Of a DNA stretch of 64,000 nucleotides, positions 8,321 through 33,149 are shown piece by piece. A program made the position numbers and the translations under genes. The notes beneath the pieces were generated by a model, which saw only the letters and a program-made list of their open reading frames with translations, was not told the DNA's origin and did not search any database. The stretch's first letter is position 1, and every line of letters begins with the position of its first letter. The stretch comes from Acidobacteriaceae bacterium (GTDB lineage: Bacteria > Acidobacteriota > Terriglobia > Terriglobales > Acidobacteriaceae). The stretch spans positions 9,690 to 73,689 of the forward strand of contig PLIO01000086.1 of the NCBI GenBank assembly GCA_003140075.1, in the 5' to 3' direction.

Positions 8321-10879
8321 TTGCACATGAATGGCCGAGTTATAGGTCACTATAGAATCGTCGAAAAAATCGGTTCGGGAGCCATGGGTGAGGTGTTCCG
8401 GGCTCGGGACGAACGGTTAGGGCGCGATGTCGCTCTCAAGCTGATCCGTCCGGCTTCCAGCGACAACCCTGATCATCTCCGCCGCTTCGAATTGGAGGCT
8501 CGCGCTGCGGCGGCTCTGAATCATCCGAACATTGTGGCCATCTATGATGTCGGACTAGACGAAGGTTCTCCTTACATCGTTTGCGAATTGCTCGAGGGCA
8601 AGACCCTGCGCAAAAGCCTTTCGGAGGGACCGCTGCCGGCTCGCCTGGCGTTGGACTACTCGCTGCAAATCGTCCAAGGTCTCATCGCGGCTCATGATCG
8701 CCGCGTCATTCACCGTGACCTCAAGCCGGAAAACCTGTTTGTAACCACGGATGGCCGGCTCAAGATCCTCGACTTCGGAGTGGCCAAGCTGCAATCTGCG
8801 CTGGGAGAATCCGGACGCTCCGTCGAAGACTTGACGACGGTAACCAGGAGTGGAGCGGTCGTCGGCACTGTCGCGTATATGTCGCCCGAGCAACTGCGCG
8901 GCAAAACGGTGGACCATCGCAGCGACATCTTCAGCGTAGGCACGATTCTCTACGAAATGCTGGCCGGGCGGCGGCCTTTTCGCGGCGAGACCGAGGTCGA
9001 CACAATTACTGCCGTCCTGCGCGAGGATCCTCCCGAGGTCCCCTTGGAGCAGGCAGGCATTCCCGTACCGTTCCGGCAAATCGTTGGTCATAGTCTGGAG
9101 AAAGAGCCCGAAAAGCGCTTTCAGTCGGCGCGTGACCTGGCATTCGCGTTGGAAACTCTTTCAGACACTTCTGGCGGACGGGCAAAAGGCTTTGGGCCGC
9201 CAAAGCTGCGAGCGAAGGTCCTGCCGTGGGCCCTATCGGGAGCGCTCCTGATCGTGGCACTCCTGCTTCTGGGCAGACAGGCGCAGCAAAAAACAATGCC
9301 GCCCGTCTACCGCCGCCTGACCTTTGATGAGGGCACTGTCTACGCGGCCCGCTTTGCGCCCGACTTTCGCTCGGTCGTCTACGGGGCGGCGTGGAACGGC
9401 AAACCGCTGCAGTTGTTCGCGACCGTTGGGGACTCTATATCGACTCAAACGCTCAACGTCACGGATGCAAACTTGTTAGCCATTTCCAAGACTGGCGAAC
9501 TGGCGCTGGTGCTTCACGGCGCCCACATGGCGCATCTTAAAATTGAAAACGGCACGCTGGCTCGCGCTCCTCTCGCCGGAGGTTCTCCCAGAGAGGTTCT
9601 GGAAGGCGTTACTTGGGCGGATTGGGGCGCAAATGGCGAATTGGCGGTCGTGCACCACGCTGAGGGCCGTGACCGGATTGAATACCCGATTGGCCATGTT
9701 CTATACCAAAGCGATGGCTGGATCAGCCATGTCCGGCTTTCTCCGCGAGCCGATGAGATTGCTTTCATCAACCATCCGTCGCTGTGGGATGACCGCGGAC
9801 TGGTTTGCCTCTTGGATCATACCGGACATTTCAAGATACTCTCTCCGCAGTATGACTCCGCGGACGGCCTGGCTTGGAGTGGCGATGGAAAGGAAATCTG
9901 GTTTACGGCCGCTGAGAATGGTTATACGCGCGGCTTGCTCGCCGTGGATACCGCAGGGGCTGCCAGGACCGTTCTAAGAATTCCGGCGGGGATGACCTTG
10001 CAGGACATAGCTCCAGATGGCCGAGCGCTGGTGAGCCTGGATGCCGAACGCCTGGTCATGGCAACCTCCGCACAGAAAGGCAAGGCGGTCGACATTTCCT
10101 CGCATGATTGGGATGTTGCGAAAGACATCTCGCGGGACGGCCAGTCCGTGTTGTTCGAGGATGCAAGCGAGGCCGCTCCTACTAACTATTCGGTGGCCAT
10201 TCGTAAAATCGACGGTACTCCGCCCGTTGTTCTGGGAGAAGGGAGCGCAGGCGGGCTTTCGCCGGACGGCAAATGGGCGATCTCCATTATCACCGGCAGC
10301 CCGGGGCGCGTGATGTTGCTTCCCATCGGCCCGGGTCAGCCTCGCACGATTCCGGTGAGTGGGCTGGAGCGCATCGAAAACGGCAACTCCCGCTTCCTCG
10401 CGGACGGGAAAACAATCACCCTCAACGGCAATCAACCCGGCCATGGAGTGCGCTGCTATCTCGTAGGCGTGGACGATGGAAAATTAACACCGATCACACC
10501 GGAGGGAACTACCGGCGGTCTAGTTTCGCCCGACGGCAAATACATGCTTCGGGCCAATGAAACCGGCGGGGTCGTGGTCTATCCCGTCGCCGGAGGAGCC
10601 CCGCATCCCATCCCGGATCTCGGACAAAGCTTTGTTCCTGTCCAGTGGTCGGAGGATGATGCTTCCGTCTATGGCTATCGTCGGGGAGACGTTCCAACCA
10701 AGGTGTACCGGGTCAACCTGGTTACGGGCCAACAAACGGTCATCCAGGAATTGCAGCCCGAGACGCTCAAAGGTGTGGTTTCGATCGCTCCTGTGGTCAT
10801 GAGCCGCGATGGCTCGCGGTTTGCATATGGCTATTATCAGGTCTTTTCCGTGCTGTACGTGATTTCCGGCTTGCACTAG
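8321..10879 (+). CDS. Membrane Ser/Thr protein kinase with C-terminal beta-propeller
   Basis: 852 residues if translation begins at the TTG at 8321. An ATG two codons later (8327) may be the real start. An N-terminal Hanks-type kinase domain covers about 10-275: glycine loop KIGSGAMGEVF, catalytic lysine in VALKLI (about K40), HRDLKPEN (131-138) and DFG (151-153). A single transmembrane helix lies at about 297-315 (LPWALSGALLIVALLLLG). The rest is a WD40/PD40-like propeller with repeated SPDGKW/SPDGKY strands, expected outside the membrane. This kinase-TM-propeller layout is common in Acidobacteriota. The activating signal and substrates are unknown. The gene converges on the oxygenase pair downstream. 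Confidence 0.92.
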   Translation: MHMNGRVIGHYRIVEKIGSGAMGEVFRARDERLGRDVALKLIRPASSDNPDHLRRFELEARAAAALNHPNIVAIYDVGLDEGSPYIVCELLEGKTLRKSLSEGPLPARLALDYSLQIVQGLIAAHDRRVIHRDLKPENLFVTTDGRLKILDFGVAKLQSALGESGRSVEDLTTVTRSGAVVGTVAYMSPEQLRGKTVDHRSDIFSVGTILYEMLAGRRPFRGETEVDTITAVLREDPPEVPLEQAGIPVPFRQIVGHSLEKEPEKRFQSARDLAFALETLSDTSGGRAKGFGPPKLRAKVLPWALSGALLIVALLLLGRQAQQKTMPPVYRRLTFDEGTVYAARFAPDFRSVVYGAAWNGKPLQLFATVGDSISTQTLNVTDANLLAISKTGELALVLHGAHMAHLKIENGTLARAPLAGGSPREVLEGVTWADWGANGELAVVHHAEGRDRIEYPIGHVLYQSDGWISHVRLSPRADEIAFINHPSLWDDRGLVCLLDHTGHFKILSPQYDSADGLAWSGDGKEIWFTAAENGYTRGLLAVDTAGAARTVLRIPAGMTLQDIAPDGRALVSLDAERLVMATSAQKGKAVDISSHDWDVAKDISRDGQSVLFEDASEAAPTNYSVAIRKIDGTPPVVLGEGSAGGLSPDGKWAISIITGSPGRVMLLPIGPGQPRTIPVSGLERIENGNSRFLADGKTITLNGNQPGHGVRCYLVGVDDGKLTPITPEGTTGGLVSPDGKYMLRANETGGVVVYPVAGGAPHPIPDLGQSFVPVQWSEDDASVYGYRRGDVPTKVYRVNLVTGQQTVIQELQPETLKGVVSIAPVVMSRDGSRFAYGYYQVFSVLYVISGLH

Positions 10880-10903: not shown

Positions 10904-11950
10904 TTAGTTAAGCGGCCCGGCAAAATCCGCAGGCACGTAATGGAAGAAGATGGACGTTGAAGTGTGTCCCGCGCCGAGAACATCGCGGTAGTGCGGCACC
11001 CTCGTTCCCCGGTAGACTAAGCCGTCTCCCAGAGCCTGATAAACCGTCACCGTGCCTTCGGCGGTATCGAGGCGGATCGGCCACGATGTTTCCAACTCCG
11101 GTTCGGGAGAGAAATCCAGACACAACGTAACGCTGAACTCGCATTGCTCCCGGTCCGTGTGCTTCTTCAGCTCGGCGCCGCTCAAATAAGACGCCAGATA
11201 AACATAGGAAGGCTTGATCGCTTCGCCGGCGATGGCCTTGACCGCATTCGCAATCTGGTGGTGGAAGAAGCGCGCCACTTTCTCGTTGTGGGCTACATAT
11301 CGCCTCGAACTCTGCTCGTCACCGAGCTTAATTGTTCCCCGCCGCAGAGCGTGCCGGTAGTAGCGACGCAAGGCGGCAAGATTAAAAGGGTGAATCAAGT
11401 TTTCGAGCGGTACGTAACCTTTCTCTCGAAACACCGAAGCGCGCTTCCTGACGATTTCCGACCACTCCGAAAGACGGAGTTCGGCGTGGCCTTCCGGTAC
11501 CAAGATGCCGGCCTCGGCCAGTAAGAGTCGCTCTTTGTTCGGAAGTGAAGCGGGCGCGGGTTCGCCCGCCCGAAGGCGCAAAACATCCGCTTCAAGTCGC
11601 GGACCGAGCCAGAACGGATGCAGAGATTCGGTAGCCGGGTCACGCACCCAAGCCACCGCACTCTGCAAGTGGAAACCTTCCAGCAAATCCCGATGCGATT
11701 CCAGTCCTGCCGGCATCTGTCCCGCACTCAAAACTGAACACTGAGGGTTGAGGAATAGCGGCTGAGACAGGAAGCGCTTTCGATGTTGTGAATCGAGAGC
11801 GCGCCGCGGAATCAGGTGCAACGGCAACTCGTCGAGCAGACAATAGAATTGTTCTGGAGGCAAGGCCGCGGTAAGCGTTTGCCGCGACCCTGCCCCCATC
11901 AGGCTTGCAATCCACTCAAGCCACGCCGTGTCTCTTACTTGTGAAGCCAT
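10904..11950 (-). CDS. Putative Fe(II)/2-oxoglutarate-dependent oxygenase
   Basis: 348 residues from the ATG at 11950 (MASQVRDTAW). An in-frame start at 11995 is possible but would overlap the preceding gene by 61 bp instead of 16 bp. The N-terminal ~200 residues are not recognised. The C-terminal part has a double-stranded-beta-helix look: YLASYLSGAELKKHTDREQ gives HxD (about H264/D266), and VPHYRD gives a distal histidine (about H320), the full facial triad. It overlaps the upstream PPG-repeat oxygenase gene by 16 bp, so the two are almost certainly cotranslated and act in one process. Substrate unknown; the catalytic family call is from motif reading only. Confidence 0.65.
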   Translation of the reverse strand: MASQVRDTAWLEWIASLMGAGSRQTLTAALPPEQFYCLLDELPLHLIPRRALDSQHRKRFLSQPLFLNPQCSVLSAGQMPAGLESHRDLLEGFHLQSAVAWVRDPATESLHPFWLGPRLEADVLRLRAGEPAPASLPNKERLLLAEAGILVPEGHAELRLSEWSEIVRKRASVFREKGYVPLENLIHPFNLAALRRYYRHALRRGTIKLGDEQSSRRYVAHNEKVARFFHHQIANAVKAIAGEAIKPSYVYLASYLSGAELKKHTDREQCEFSVTLCLDFSPEPELETSWPIRLDTAEGTVTVYQALGDGLVYRGTRVPHYRDVLGAGHTSTSIFFHYVPADFAGPLN

Positions 11951-13149
11951 CCGTTTAGTGTGAAGCGGCTGTCGGCGAATGTCCGGGAGGCACACTCTAC
12001 CGCGGTTATCTCATGCTTGACCGAACACGGGAAAAACACGATCTGGTTCTGCCGCGGCACAATCGTCTGGTAACCACTTGTGCCAAAAGGGCGCTCACTT
12101 TCCCGGCGCGAGTCATGCAGGCGCAATTCTCCGCCGTCGAACTGCCGCGGTTCGCGATGGAAAAAGTAGACGAAGGTCATCCGCCGCGAAGCCACCCTCT
12201 CTTGCGCGTCATCACAGTGCACATGAAAGAAGTCTCCGTCATTGCTCGCCGTAATCTGCACCTCGGTCCGCGTGACCGGAAACTGGTCGATCCCTAACTG
12301 ATCCAGCACTGTCGGCAGCACGCCCCGTATCCGGTCCAGAATGACTTCCTCATGCGGTCCCATATCCATCAGCACTCGCGACCGGCGATGGCTGTAATCG
12401 GTTACCCCTGGGTTTCCGCTGGGAGAAATCACTTCGCTGCCCCGAAACTCCGCCTCGTGTTGCAGCGTGTATTGGATGAGTTCGTCCAGTTCTTGTGGAG
12501 CGAGGAACTCGTCCAAGACGACGCACTGTGCCGCAGCGATCACAGACGCATCCAGCACCGCAACGCCGTTACCCGAATCGAAACCTGGTTCCGCGCCTCG
12601 ATACGCCACTACGGTCGAACGATGCACGCCCGGGGGCTGCGGCCCACCCGGGGGTTGCGGTCCGCTCGGCGCGTCCTCCGGCGGGGGCTCATTCACTCGA
12701 AAAGATCGGATGCCTGGGGGCTGCGGTCCGCCCGGGGGTTGCGGTCCACCCGGCGCATCCTCCGGCGGGGGCTCATTCACCCGAAGGGATCGGATGCCCG
12801 GGGGCTGCGGTCCACCCGGGGGTTGCGGTCCGCTCGGCGCGTCCTCCGGCGGAGGCTCATACACGCCAGTGGCGAAAGCTTCTCGTCCGCCCTCCGATGT
12901 TGCAGCGCGCGCCACTATCCTCTCCACGATGCTGCCACCCAACAGTGAAAACGCGCGCTGCGCCACCGTCTCACCCACCGAGCGCGCTATGATCGCGGCT
13001 ACAGCGGATTGCGTCTCCGGACTGCCGCTGGATGCGGCCCTGGCATTTTGCAGCAGACTCGTCATCAATTCCCGCTCGCGCGGGCTCAAGATTCGGTCAT
13101 CCTGCATTAACGTTTCAGAAAAAGCGTCGAGGATCTGTTTCGCGGTCAT
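11935..13149 (-). CDS. Prolyl-4-hydroxylase-like oxygenase with N-terminal PPG-rich repeats
   Basis: 404 residues from the ATG at 13149, which has GGGAGGAG eight bases upstream. A GTG at 13158 is too close to that site. The layout is: an alpha-helical-looking N-terminus (about 1-95), three near-identical 28-residue proline-rich repeats (about 98-181), then a catalytic domain (about 205-404). The catalytic residues are visible: HVHCDD gives HxD (about H311/D313), FPCSVKHEI gives the distal His (about H379), and ADSRFTLNGW gives the 2-oxoglutarate-binding Arg (about R395). This matches the prolyl-4-hydroxylase-like 2OG-Fe(II) superfamily. Each repeat holds two QPPG units, the sequence context favoured by collagen prolyl hydroxylases, so self-hydroxylation is a plausible inference. 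Cotranslated with a second oxygenase. Confidence 0.8.
   Translation of the reverse strand: MTAKQILDAFSETLMQDDRILSPRERELMTSLLQNARAASSGSPETQSAVAAIIARSVGETVAQRAFSLLGGSIVERIVARAATSEGGREAFATGVYEPPPEDAPSGPQPPGGPQPPGIRSLRVNEPPPEDAPGGPQPPGGPQPPGIRSFRVNEPPPEDAPSGPQPPGGPQPPGVHRSTVVAYRGAEPGFDSGNGVAVLDASVIAAAQCVVLDEFLAPQELDELIQYTLQHEAEFRGSEVISPSGNPGVTDYSHRRSRVLMDMGPHEEVILDRIRGVLPTVLDQLGIDQFPVTRTEVQITASNDGDFFHVHCDDAQERVASRRMTFVYFFHREPRQFDGGELRLHDSRRESERPFGTSGYQTIVPRQNQIVFFPCSVKHEITAVECASRTFADSRFTLNGWLHK
12607..12858 (-). repeat. Three 84-bp coding repeats (PPG-rich)
   Basis: Tandem units at 12775-12858, 12691-12774 and 12607-12690 encode EPPPEDAPSGPQPPGGPQPP followed by G and a seven-residue tail (IRSLRVN, IRSFRVN, then the diverged VHRSTVV). 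The units are nearly identical at DNA level, indicating recent duplication or gene conversion. Confidence 0.9.
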
Positions 13150-13321
13150 TGAACACACTCCTCCCTTGTCGTGTCTCGGACGTTTAAGTTCCAGTTGGGA
13201 AATTGAGGAGCGCTCTGGCGGAGACAGTAGCAGGAAACCGCGGAATTATCAAACAGATTTTGCTGTGGATATCTGATTTTGTTGTGCAGAAATGTAGTGG
13301 CGCTTTTAAGAACCGAAAAAT

Positions 13322-14017
13322 CTACCTGCCGGCCATCGCTCCCACCATCGAGTGGAAAACCTTCATCCCGTCGATGCAGCCCAGTTCCGGTTCGGCCGAT
13401 CGTTCGGGATGGGGCATCATGCCCACGACATTGCCCCCGGCGCTGCAGATGCCGGCGATATTGTCCAGAGAGCCGTTCGGATTAGCGGACGGCGAAACCT
13501 CGCCGAAGGGTGTCGCATAACGAAACACTACACGGTGATCCCGGCGCAATTCCTCCAGCGTTTCCTGATCGCAGAAGTAGTTCCCCTCCATGTGACCGAT
13601 CGGGATGGTCAATACTTCCCCCACCAAACAAGCGTTGGTGAAGGGAGTCGCAGCATTCTCCACCCGCACCTGCACCGGTTTGCAAACATATTTCAATCCG
13701 GTGTTGCGCATGAGAGCCCCCGGCAACAGACCCGACTCGCACAGGATCTGAAAGCCATTGCAAATTCCCAGCACCAACCCTCCACCCCCGGCAAAGCGGC
13801 GCACCGATTCCATGACCGGGGAAAACTTCGCAATCGCGCCCGTCCGCAGGTAGTCCCCAAAGGCAAAACCTCCAGGAACAATAATGGCGTCGCAGTTTTC
13901 CAGATCGTGCGATTCGTGCCAGAGAAAAGTTACCGGCTGCCTGGCGACTTGCTGAATCGTCCAGAAGGCATCGTGGTCGCAGTTGGAACCTGGGAAGATG
14001 ATGACGCCAAATTTCAT
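13322..14017 (-). CDS. purQ: Phosphoribosylformylglycinamidine synthase, glutaminase subunit PurQ
   Basis: 231-residue class I glutamine amidotransferase subunit that supplies ammonia to PurL in de novo purine synthesis. The nucleophile is in [10 protein letters not shown] (about C86), and the His-Glu pair is in [11 protein letters not shown] (about H203 and E205). The N-terminus [16 protein letters not shown] is the family start. Length is normal for the small PurQ type that works with PurS and small PurL. Neither purS nor purL is in the window. The next gene on the same strand (the PPG-repeat oxygenase) starts 172 bp downstream. Confidence 0.93.
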
Positions 14018-14086: not shown

Positions 14087-14126
14087 AAAGCCCTGCATCA
14101 CGTTTGAAAGCCCTGCATCACGTTTG
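14087..14126. repeat. Perfect 20-bp tandem duplication
   Basis: The unit AAAGCCCTGCATCACGTTTG occurs twice back to back (14087-14106 and 14107-14126), just upstream of a GTCATTCCGAGCGAAGCGAG-type dispersed repeat fragment at 14125-14150. Confidence 0.9.
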
Positions 14127-14286: not shown

Positions 14287-14808
14287 TCACCCTGCGCTCC
14301 TCCGAATCTTCTCCTCCCACCAAATCCAGTCGTTGATCCGAACCAGTCCAGCCTCTCCGTAGGCATAAGACCGGTAACTGCTCCACCGCCAATCCTCAGG
14401 ACTCGCCACCAGCCCGCGCACAACCGGATTGCGATGCATGTACTTCAGCTTCTCAACCTCTTTCCGTTGGCTCCACAGATTGAAATCGTAGAAACGACGT
14501 TGCCAGAAATGACCGGAAAATTCACCTCGCGTGGCCAGTCGCCGGGAGACGCCCAGCTTCACACCCTGAATCACCGTTGAGGGATTGCCAAGGATCAATG
14601 ATAGGCTCGGAAATCACCAGATGCACGTGCTCGGGCATGACCACGTATCCGATCACGGCAAAACGGTAGCGATCGCGCATCCGTTCCAGGACAGCAAGAA
14701 GCAGTCCCGGCGCGCGACAGCACCGAGCAACGGCCTACGCCCGTAGCAACTCCAAGTGACGTAATGGAGGCCTCCCGTGCCGTAATAACGCTTCAAGCCC
14801 CAAGGCAT
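14287..14808 (-). pseudogene. Broken REP-associated tyrosine transposase (RAYT, Y1/HUH family)
   Basis: The reading begins at an ATG at 14808 (MPWGLKRYYGTGGLHYVTW), typical of RAYT N-termini. It then shifts frame near RRD (about 14705-14715) to continue LLLAVLERMRDRYRFAVIGY and the HUH motif MPEHVHLVISEP. It shifts again near 14600 to the C-terminal segment (ILGNPSTVIQ ... FWQRRFYDFNLW ... LKYMHRNPVVRGLV ... DWRWSSYRSY). At least two frameshifts separate three homologous blocks, so no intact protein is possible. RAYTs are single-copy enzymes that mobilise REP palindromes, and such palindromes flank this relic. Confidence 0.85.
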
Positions 14809-31588: not shown

Positions 31589-31676
31589 CCACGGTGGGTT
31601 GGTCCGCTGGGAAGTGGGAGTGCAGCAGATCCGGATGTGAGTGCGGGAAAAATACTGCAGGGAAACGGAGGAAGGT

Positions 31677-33149
31677 ATGGCGAACGCCGCGGTGGCCGTA
31701 GCAGGAAGAAGTACCCCGGAATACAGCATCTGGCGCGTGATCATGGCCTCGTCGGTCGGCACCATGATCGAGTGGTACGACTTCTACATTTTCGGCAGTC
31801 TGACGGCTATCCTGGCGCTGAAGTTTTATCCACCGGGCAATGACACGTTCGCCTACCTCGCTTATCTCGCGACGTTTGCGGTCGGCTTTCTGGTGCGGCC
31901 GTTCGGCGCACTGTTCTTCGGCCGCATCGGCGATCTGGTCGGACGCAAGTATGCCTTTATCGTAACCCTCTCCATCATGGGCTTTTCGACGTTTGTCATC
32001 GGCCTACTGCCGTCCTACGCGACGGCCGGCTGGTTCGCGCCGATCGTGCTCCTCTTGATCCGCGTCTTACAAGGTTTGGCACTGGGCGGAGAGTACGGCG
32101 GCGCCGCGGTTTATGTCGGCGAGCACGTTCCCGACAACAAGCGCGGCTTCTACACCAGCTTCATCCAGATCACGGCCACGCTGGGCCTGTTTGTCTCGCT
32201 CATCGTGATTCTGCTTACGCAATACTCGATGTCGAAGGAAGACTTCTCCGCTTATGGCTGGCGCATTCCTTTCCTGGTTTCCATCATCCTGGTGCTCATC
32301 TCACTCTATATTCGCTTGAAGATGAAGGAATCGCCCATCTTCGCCGAACTCAAGGCCACGGGCATGACTTCCACGCAACCGCTGAAGGATGCCTTCACCA
32401 AATGGCCGAATCTGAAGAACGTCCTGATTTCGCTTTTCGGAGCCACTGCGGGGCAGGGTGTGGTCTGGTACACCGGGCAGTTTTACGCCCTGTTCTATAT
32501 GCAGACCGTCCTGAAAGTGAATGTCAAAAGTGCCAACATCGTGGTCGCGATCGCCCTGCTGATCGGCATGCCGTTCTTCACCGTAGTGGGCGCGCTCTCC
32601 GACAAGATCGGGCGGAAGAAGCTCATGATGGCGGGCTGCCTGCTCGGCGTCCTTTTCTACATTCCGATCTACAAAGCCATGGAACGCGCCGCGGGGAACA
32701 ACGTGGTCACGGTAAAGTCCACCCGCAACAAAGTGACCGGCGCGACCGGGCTCACAGCTATGACCACGGACGCGACCGGTACATTGGTGCCCGCCAAGGA
32801 AGCTCCGAATCCGAATCTCACCATGTTGGTGCTGCTGGTGTTTGTGCAGGTTCTCTTCGTATGCCTGGTTTACGGCCCCATCGCCGCCTACCTGATTGAA
32901 GCCTTCCCGGCAAGGATTCGTTACACGTCGCTTTCTCTGCCCTATCACATCGGGAACGGCGTCTTTGGCGGGATGCTGCCGCTGATCGGCCTCTGGTCCG
33001 TCGCGGCCACCGGCAACATTTACGCCGGACTCTATTACCCGATGATTGTGGCGGGCATGACCTTTATCGTGGGAAGCCTGCTGCTGAAAGAGACGCGCGC
33101 CACACGCATCTGGGATGAAGCCGGAGGCAAGGCATCGGCGGCGGATTGA
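31677..33149 (+). CDS. MFS transporter, metabolite:H+ symporter (MHS) family
   Basis: 490 residues from the ATG at 31677 with GGAGG just upstream. Twelve hydrophobic segments are expected. The MHS signature is clear: ASSVGTMIEWYDFYIFGSLT in TM1, FVRRPFGALFFGRIGDLVGRK-like loop 2-3 (here FLVRPFGALFFGRIGDLVGR), and RVLQGLALGGEYGGAAVYVG in TM4. Family members carry carboxylates, proline/betaine, shikimate or dicarboxylic acids with protons. An unusually long hydrophilic loop (about residues 340-385, rich in T, N and A) separates the TM9-10 region. With acsA and the porin nearby, an organic-acid substrate is plausible but unproven. Confidence 0.88.
   Translation: MANAAVAVAGRSTPEYSIWRVIMASSVGTMIEWYDFYIFGSLTAILALKFYPPGNDTFAYLAYLATFAVGFLVRPFGALFFGRIGDLVGRKYAFIVTLSIMGFSTFVIGLLPSYATAGWFAPIVLLLIRVLQGLALGGEYGGAAVYVGEHVPDNKRGFYTSFIQITATLGLFVSLIVILLTQYSMSKEDFSAYGWRIPFLVSIILVLISLYIRLKMKESPIFAELKATGMTSTQPLKDAFTKWPNLKNVLISLFGATAGQGVVWYTGQFYALFYMQTVLKVNVKSANIVVAIALLIGMPFFTVVGALSDKIGRKKLMMAGCLLGVLFYIPIYKAMERAAGNNVVTVKSTRNKVTGATGLTAMTTDATGTLVPAKEAPNPNLTMLVLLVFVQVLFVCLVYGPIAAYLIEAFPARIRYTSLSLPYHIGNGVFGGMLPLIGLWSVAATGNIYAGLYYPMIVAGMTFIVGSLLLKETRATRIWDEAGGKASAAD

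Follow-up and report, generated by a model that had tools for sequence, protein, structure and literature searches.

Collagen-type prolyl 4-hydroxylases act on repeated proline/glycine-rich (Gly-X-Y) substrates, while few bacterial enzymes of the PHD/P4H type have, to our knowledge, known substrates, and no prolyl hydroxylase with a repeated substrate in its own chain is known to us. PPHD, the prolyl hydroxylase of P. putida, is described, in the available text of PMC7864055, as hydroxylating EF-Tu, an outside protein. In the borosins (omphalotin family), the modifying enzyme and its own core peptide are contained in one protein, according to the available part of PMC7878506. In the accessible text of a 2025 RRE survey (PMC12710340), the terms 2OG, oxoglutarate, oxygenase and ketoglutarate are either confined to the reference list or absent. 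PPHD and borosin self-modification are thus known; a literature search of titles and abstract openings, with subscription literature mostly outside its scope, gave no account, among the matches listed, of the two-gene system described here.

We examined a 64,000-nucleotide stretch of an Acidobacteriaceae genome (the window), in which two overlapping genes, referred to here as A and B, were identified together with the following features.

11935-13149, minus strand: gene A, ATG at 13149, 404 aa; helical domain, proline-rich repeats and a 2OG-Fe(II) oxygenase of the prolyl-hydroxylase fold (both folds predicted)
12880-13149, minus strand: N-terminal domain of A, residues ~1-90; four predicted helices, no Pfam family above cut-off
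12628-12864, minus strand: tandem array in A, 84-bp units (28 aa) with GPQPPGGPQPPG within each; predicted disordered
11935-12537, minus strand: catalytic domain of A, residues ~205-404, with H311, D313, H379 and R395
10904-11950, minus strand: gene B, ATG at 11950, 348 aa; second oxygenase, 2OG type by fold, with its own N-terminal region
11935-11950, minus strand: overlap of the end of A and the start of B, 16 bp
13322-14017, minus strand: PurQ, upstream of A (Pfam GATase_5)
8321-10879, convergent, downstream of B: Ser/Thr kinase (Pfam Pkinase)
31641-33149: MFS-like transporter frame (by eye)

The initial annotation had reported three near-identical 28-residue units with six PPG tripeptides in total, and these are real by the reading frames and by TRF, which returned an array at 12628-12864 with a period of 84 bp (28 codons), 2.8 copies, 89% matches and a score of 397. 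The units had also been placed directly in front of the 2OG-Fe(II) domain; the order is right, but 30-35 residues intervene between the last repeat and the folded catalytic domain in the predicted structure. In the same prediction the helices occupy residues 3-87, and the middle part with the repeats has a pLDDT of about 35-50. A 269-aa open frame (12467-13276, plus strand) runs antisense to gene A over the GC-rich repeats; the codon-position bias within the array supports the sense frame of gene A over this antisense frame.

The C-terminal part of A matched 2OG-FeII_Oxy_3 (PF13640) over residues 298-403 with an E value of 3.9e-17 (63.4 bits, cut-off 27), and the window's own genome has one PF13640 match besides gene A. 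The HxD...H...R set reported for A is complete, as H311, D313, H379 and R395, the last of which we take to be the 2OG-binding Arg by comparison with PHD2, were invariant in 22 of 22 aligned rows. In a Foldseek search the model of A matched 4iw3_A, the P. putida prolyl hydroxylase (E 1.6e-10, TM by target length 0.72, identity 18%), and the best 50 matches listed were all 2OG-oxygenase-type enzymes by title. The second gene likewise has its own HxD...H (H264-x-D266 and H320, invariant in 22/22 rows) and the 16-bp overlap attributed to it. Gene B gave no match in Pfam, NCBIfam or PDB sequences up to an E value of 1; its AlphaFold model (mean pLDDT 89.5) is that of an oxygenase of the same kind as A, and it also matched 4iw3_A (E 6.3e-10, TM by target length 0.69, identity 15%). 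A second structure comparison of the B model returned SnoN (Z 18.8), PHD2 entries (up to 17.9) and PPHD 4j25 (17.8), which are roughly tied. Going by these models, the closest fold relative of either catalytic domain is PPHD, with PHD2 near it and, in the case of B, SnoN as well. The usual 2OG anchor is an Arg or Lys 9-11 residues after the second His. No invariant Arg or Lys was found 9-11 residues past H320 of B in the 22 aligned rows, in which R322 (+2 from H320), S331 and T332 are invariant; B is therefore classed as 2OG-type by fold only and its chemistry is uncertain.

Gene B was detected in 7 of 396 genomes sampled over the phylum and, by profile search, in 38 of 397 genomes of the order, where its occurrence outside the genus amounts to 9 genomes from 9 other genera. 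Within the genus, 29 of the 34 genomes listed have B, although just 20 residues of it were matched in G747, and 84, at a contig end, in G626. Of 300 genomes from the family, 26 gave the N-terminal domain of A, and the clear matches were all gene A, contig-cut pieces of it, or remnants. Weak matches in G521 and G496 were discarded, the former falling in a histidine-kinase-like frame (by eye) and the latter containing two stops. One genome, G404 (L054), seemed to have the N-terminal domain and repeats as a separate precursor with no oxygenase; this was rejected, since the sequence beyond the repeats is that of the convergent kinase gene and the locus, flanked by purQ and kinase pieces, is a decayed remnant. 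G642 (L058) holds a broken gene A, with B absent from the 14 kb covered. The five listed genus genomes without B and these two decayed loci indicate that the pair is dispensable. Two contigs of genome G614 (L012 and L069) apparently end within the array of gene A, leaving the repeat number unreadable.

Scanning a species collection with B returned 57 loci, with titles naming Acidobacteriaceae, Candidatus Sulfotelmatobacter, Acidiferrales, Pyrinomonadaceae, Nitrococcus, Planctomycetota, Streptomyces, Micromonospora, Actinomadura, Parerythrobacter, a Hyphomicrobiales plasmid and others; in viral contigs scanned with B, none of 12 pattern matches was confirmed. In 48 of these 57 loci, some of them from Actinomycetota, Pseudomonadota and Planctomycetota, the catalytic domain of A lies immediately 5' of B and shares its strand. 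Among the remaining nine, B is within 50 bases of the locus end in L085, L099, L105 and L122, and no A was found upstream of B by BLASTP in the 1 to 8 kb present at L114, L115, L120, L121 and L123. The overlap was 16 bp in all 30 relatives measured (those of the 48 pairs with a B alignment starting at residue 1), and pairwise distances of the A catalytic domain and of B were correlated (r 0.91 for 1,272 pairs from 51 loci). Judged from sequence, A and B are co-inherited.

Both catalytic domains having PPHD (4iw3, 4j25) as their best Foldseek match, the pair might, like PPHD, hydroxylate a housekeeping target, EF-Tu or a ribosomal protein for instance, with the proline-rich segment of A being incidental. 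We regard this as unlikely, as the patchy occurrence (7/396 in the phylum, 38/397 in the order) is ill-suited to a universal target, and both the selection on the segment and the sulfotransferase fusion described below would be left unexplained.

For the proline-rich middle segment, or tape, we compared 40 distinct full-length A proteins, counting identical proteins once; proteins that stop at a contig end or are divided between two frames (e.g. L038, L056, L058, L069, L073/L160 and L098) were left out, as was the truncated L054. The segment was present in all 40 and was hypervariable, with lengths from 62 to 214 residues and the catalytic domain and partner retained, which is the outcome hoped for from the homology check proposed in the initial annotation. 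Overall it consists of 29% proline and 11% glycine, the lowest proline share being 23%, with almost no Cys or Trp. Repeat units vary by lineage, e.g. APQPPSAPQPPSN, VPQPPSGPRPSI, RPPVKDEPPPGPQPPSGGPQPPSVR and FAPRPPSPGPPSPGVSCDLAETSAQS, with periods of 7-36 residues, and continuous Gly-X-Y triplets of the collagen type are absent from them.

The initial annotation had treated PPG as the key context, which is not supported, as only 20 of the 40 segments carry PPG. In comparison, PxPP was found in 38 segments (shuffled segments: mean 27.4, maximum 35 of 40 in 300 rounds) and PQPP in 32 (mean 6.0, maximum 13 of 40, also 300 rounds), the residue after PP being mainly G, S, T or A. The two segments without PxPP, in L101 and L103, have GPGPK units instead. 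When all occurrences were counted, PxPPx was found 214 times where 46 were expected, and 29 of the 40 segments fell below 0.01; since tandem copying inflates this total, we relied on presence per segment. As far as these segments indicate, it is not PPG that recurs in relatives but P-x-P-P, chiefly in the form PQPP. A DNA pattern for PQPP(G/S)(G/A)PQPP occurred three times in the 5.8-Mb assembly, once per gene A repeat, and in no other gene, the search covering this doubled pattern alone; a reversed control pattern gave zero occurrences in the same assembly.

Arrays were then called with TRF, which is blind to reading frame, keeping a period divisible by three, at least 18 bases, few indels and the best array per gene; an earlier choice of arrays by amino-acid identity (25 arrays, pN/pS 0.14) was biased. 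The filtered arrays came from 18 of the 40 A genes. Neighbouring copies differed at 49, 43 and 231 sites at codon positions 1, 2 and 3, with about 730 comparisons each, and a chi-square on these counts is nominal because array copies share ancestry. The pN/pS between copies was 0.17 over the 18 arrays, and the window array alone gave 4, 0 and 12 differences. Exceptions were L101 (12/13/15), with no third-position excess, and L049 (8/10/19), with a small one. Function-free slippage of a GC-rich microsatellite is ruled out by the third-position excess (231 vs 49 and 43), and together with the motif shuffles the codon-position result means that the repeat array is more than chance. The pattern indicates that the repeat peptide is under selection while array length turns over fast. 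Thus the peptide matters, although the excess is silent on whether it serves as a substrate or a linker.

The main rival to the reading preferred below, quite possible but in our view less likely than not, is that selection keeps the segment as a proline-rich linker or docking tape that stays unmodified, and that the oxygenases act on an outside substrate. It could then provide stiff polyproline spacing between the helical and catalytic domains, or serve as a tape to which B or some other protein binds. Proline-rich composition is typical of spacers, and the composition of the segment, its predicted disorder and its wide range of lengths (62-214 residues) all suit one, while purifying selection fits any functional linker. 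On the other hand, a spacer would not call for any particular hexapeptide, whereas 32 of the 40 segments retain PQPP.

Forms of A that lack the segment speak to the same question. In L063, L107 and L124, A has only 205-239 residues, with the segment absent and B adjacent. Homologues lacking the repeats and having the partner elsewhere had been named as one case against a self-modifying pair; repeat-less homologues do exist, and the partner still lies beside them. Their existence, which agrees with a linker, indicates that catalysis does not need the repeats; with B still beside a segment-less A, the pair can evidently have other targets. When small frames rich in Pro and Gly were filtered for, L063 gave none and L157 (the L107 locus) one that is ~2.3 kb away on the opposite strand, while those at L124 all overlap other genes or are set apart. 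Directly upstream of the repeat-less pair, L063:8289-12461 encodes a 1390-aa protein with no Pfam match, for which a role as outside substrate is possible. In the tree, the repeat forms and the long forms described below each need one change (support 61 and 100), L124, L064 and L107 being long branches and the deeper order and the placement of repeat-less forms unsure. A split form was seen in G121, where a separate frame of 68 aa, rich in Pro and Gly and with AAGGAG ahead of its ATG, is closed by a single in-frame stop 15 bases before the oxygenase frame starts. The other three genomes of the genus of G121 gave no homologue (the gene is in 1 of 4), and this single case may be a nonsense mutation.

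Nine distant A proteins (L110-L113, L116-L119 and L154; L110 and L112 are from one species) have a ~220-residue N-terminal domain, then, at the same place as the tape, a shared RGGH(A/Y)(S/G)KP(G/A)G(V/T)P(G/T)GTG peptide, and then the oxygenase. This RGGHxxKPxGxPxGTG form was found in four phyla (Actinomycetota, Pseudomonadota, Planctomycetota and, with one acidobacterium, Acidobacteriota), and distances of A and B among the nine were correlated with an r of 0.96. No Pfam family was found in the N-terminal domain of the three long forms scanned (L154, L113 and L116), and the label "GNAT-like", given to it by eye, was dropped. In L154, the single partner scanned, Sulfotransfer_3 (Pfam, 1.9e-28) is fused in front of B, and the other long-form B proteins resemble it by eye. 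An invariant peptide at the place of the segment is not what a spacer would need; a selected linker, the main rival reading, would account for everything except this peptide and the hexapeptide.

Of the distant forms, L154 and L112 have pyruvyl-transferase and DUF1826 genes, and L112 also an Asp/Asn hydroxylase. In L124, from a Hyphomicrobiales plasmid (6965-13843), A-like and B-like oxygenases have ATPgrasp_ST, Asn_synthase and PqqD genes beside them. At L008, which is the locus of L120, a lone B directly follows a PqqD-domain protein. Such neighbourhoods place the family with peptide-modifying gene sets in some lineages. L124 also has a sulfotransferase-like frame (by eye) and resembles a lasso-peptide cluster with two extra oxygenases. 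The PqqD-domain protein at L008:424-1023 has a membrane-like stretch and a Cys/Pro-rich tail, and the B-like oxygenase at L155:6913-7743 shows a weak C-terminal PqqD match (E 0.0079, below the cut-off). Five PqqD-type matches were obtained in the window's own genome (G000), perhaps from several peptide-modification clusters elsewhere in it.

Around the window pair, five neighbours were identified by Pfam (the kinase, PurQ, YebC, NAD kinase and a sortilin-like protein). In G084 and G121, too, a gene that resembles the window kinase in its C-terminal part is convergent (by eye). The window also has a perfect 20-bp tandem duplication at 14087-14126, and at 14287-14598 a short frame that is REP-associated-transposase-like by eye, with no Pfam match at 0.001. 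The initial annotation had noted that no protease or transporter is adjacent, in agreement with the five Pfam-identified neighbours, and had offered a cleavable, RiPP-like peptide as one option, which found no support at this locus: the five neighbours are of other kinds, and a RiPP recognition element in B, suggested by eye from the order of strands and helices, gained nothing from an hhalign comparison of B residues 62-178 (22 rows) with a profile of 21 PqqD sequences, which gave a probability of 0.6%.

A fusion of RiPP precursor and enzyme in A, from which a modified core would be cut out and exported, seems to us improbable. A conserved N-terminal domain followed by a hypervariable core is RiPP-like, a distant pair (L124) lies by PqqD and Asn_synthase genes, and G121 has its separate small frame. 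Against these stand the absence of a protease or transporter among the five neighbours, the result for the N-terminal region of B against the 21 PqqD sequences, and the position of the core, which is mid-protein and not terminal.

The reading we tentatively prefer, at somewhat less than even confidence, is that the tape is the own substrate of the A/B pair, i.e., that these are two peptide-modifying oxygenases whose peptide is carried by A. The tape is the nearest candidate substrate, being selected, proline-rich and on the same chain as a domain with the prolyl-hydroxylase fold. The suggestion that the enzyme carries its own substrate is thus upheld in part, through the selection on the repeat peptide, the retention of the motif, the doubled motif found in this gene only within the genome and the predicted fold, while for hydroxylation itself, its PQPP site, its action in cis or trans and the role of B we infer the following. 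The active site of A would hydroxylate prolines of P-Q-P-P-(G/S/T/A) units in its own segment, either in cis or on a neighbouring A molecule, the N-terminal helical domain may hold A molecules together or present the tape, and B, acting alongside A or following it, would oxidise this segment too. The tape would probably stay on protein A in a permanently modified form; its release as a free peptide is no more than a possibility. The regular pairing of A with B, the split frame of G121 and, in distant forms, the invariant peptide, the sulfotransferase fusion and the PqqD-type surroundings of L124 also speak for this reading. Against it count the exceptional arrays of L101 and L049, the segments of L101 and L103 with GPGPK in place of PxPP, the repeat-less pairs, the anchor residue missing from B, the dispensability of the pair and the outside target of PPHD.

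A wider view, which we hold to be less likely than not, is that such self-substrate oxygenase pairs form a widespread family, in which the partner oxidises the tape further and the sulfotransferase of the second branch decorates the new hydroxyl. It is equally conjectural that xPQPPx arrays would then be the tape of Acidobacteriota and RGGHxxKPxGxPxGTG that of the second branch. If the own-substrate reading is true, the self-carried repeated substrate would repeat the borosin arrangement in another chemistry and offer a scaffold on which hydroxyproline-rich peptides could easily be varied; the reading also suggests what bacterial enzymes of the PHD/P4H type might act on. Even for a mere linker, fast length turnover together with a hexapeptide under selection asks for an explanation.

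Compared with known systems, A matches the Fe2+-dependent dioxygenases of PRK05467 (NCBIfam; PKHD/YbiX type) weakly in its catalytic domain (E 0.00099, 18.7 bits vs a cut-off of 143) and is not a member. The pair at L124, by PqqD, Asn_synthase and ATPgrasp_ST genes, is like the 2OG oxygenases of RiPP clusters, whereas no precursor, protease, cyclase or transporter was recognised beside the window pair. With the collagen-type prolyl 4-hydroxylases the system shares the idea of a repeated proline/glycine-rich substrate; it differs in that the units of A have no Gly at every third residue (periods 7-36) and in that enzyme and tape are one chain. PPHD (4iw3, 4j25) and PHD2 resemble both catalytic domains in predicted fold and A in its HxD...H...R, but identity to 4iw3 is only 18% (A) and 15% (B), the A/B pair adds a repeat tape, a helical domain and a second oxygenase, and PPHD acts on EF-Tu (available text of PMC7864055). 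Borosins, as presented in the available part of PMC7878506, are N-methyltransferases with a C-terminal core, whereas A has an oxygenase fold and a repeated core in its middle, with release unsupported; the likeness is that the enzyme and, by the own-substrate reading, its core peptide share one chain.
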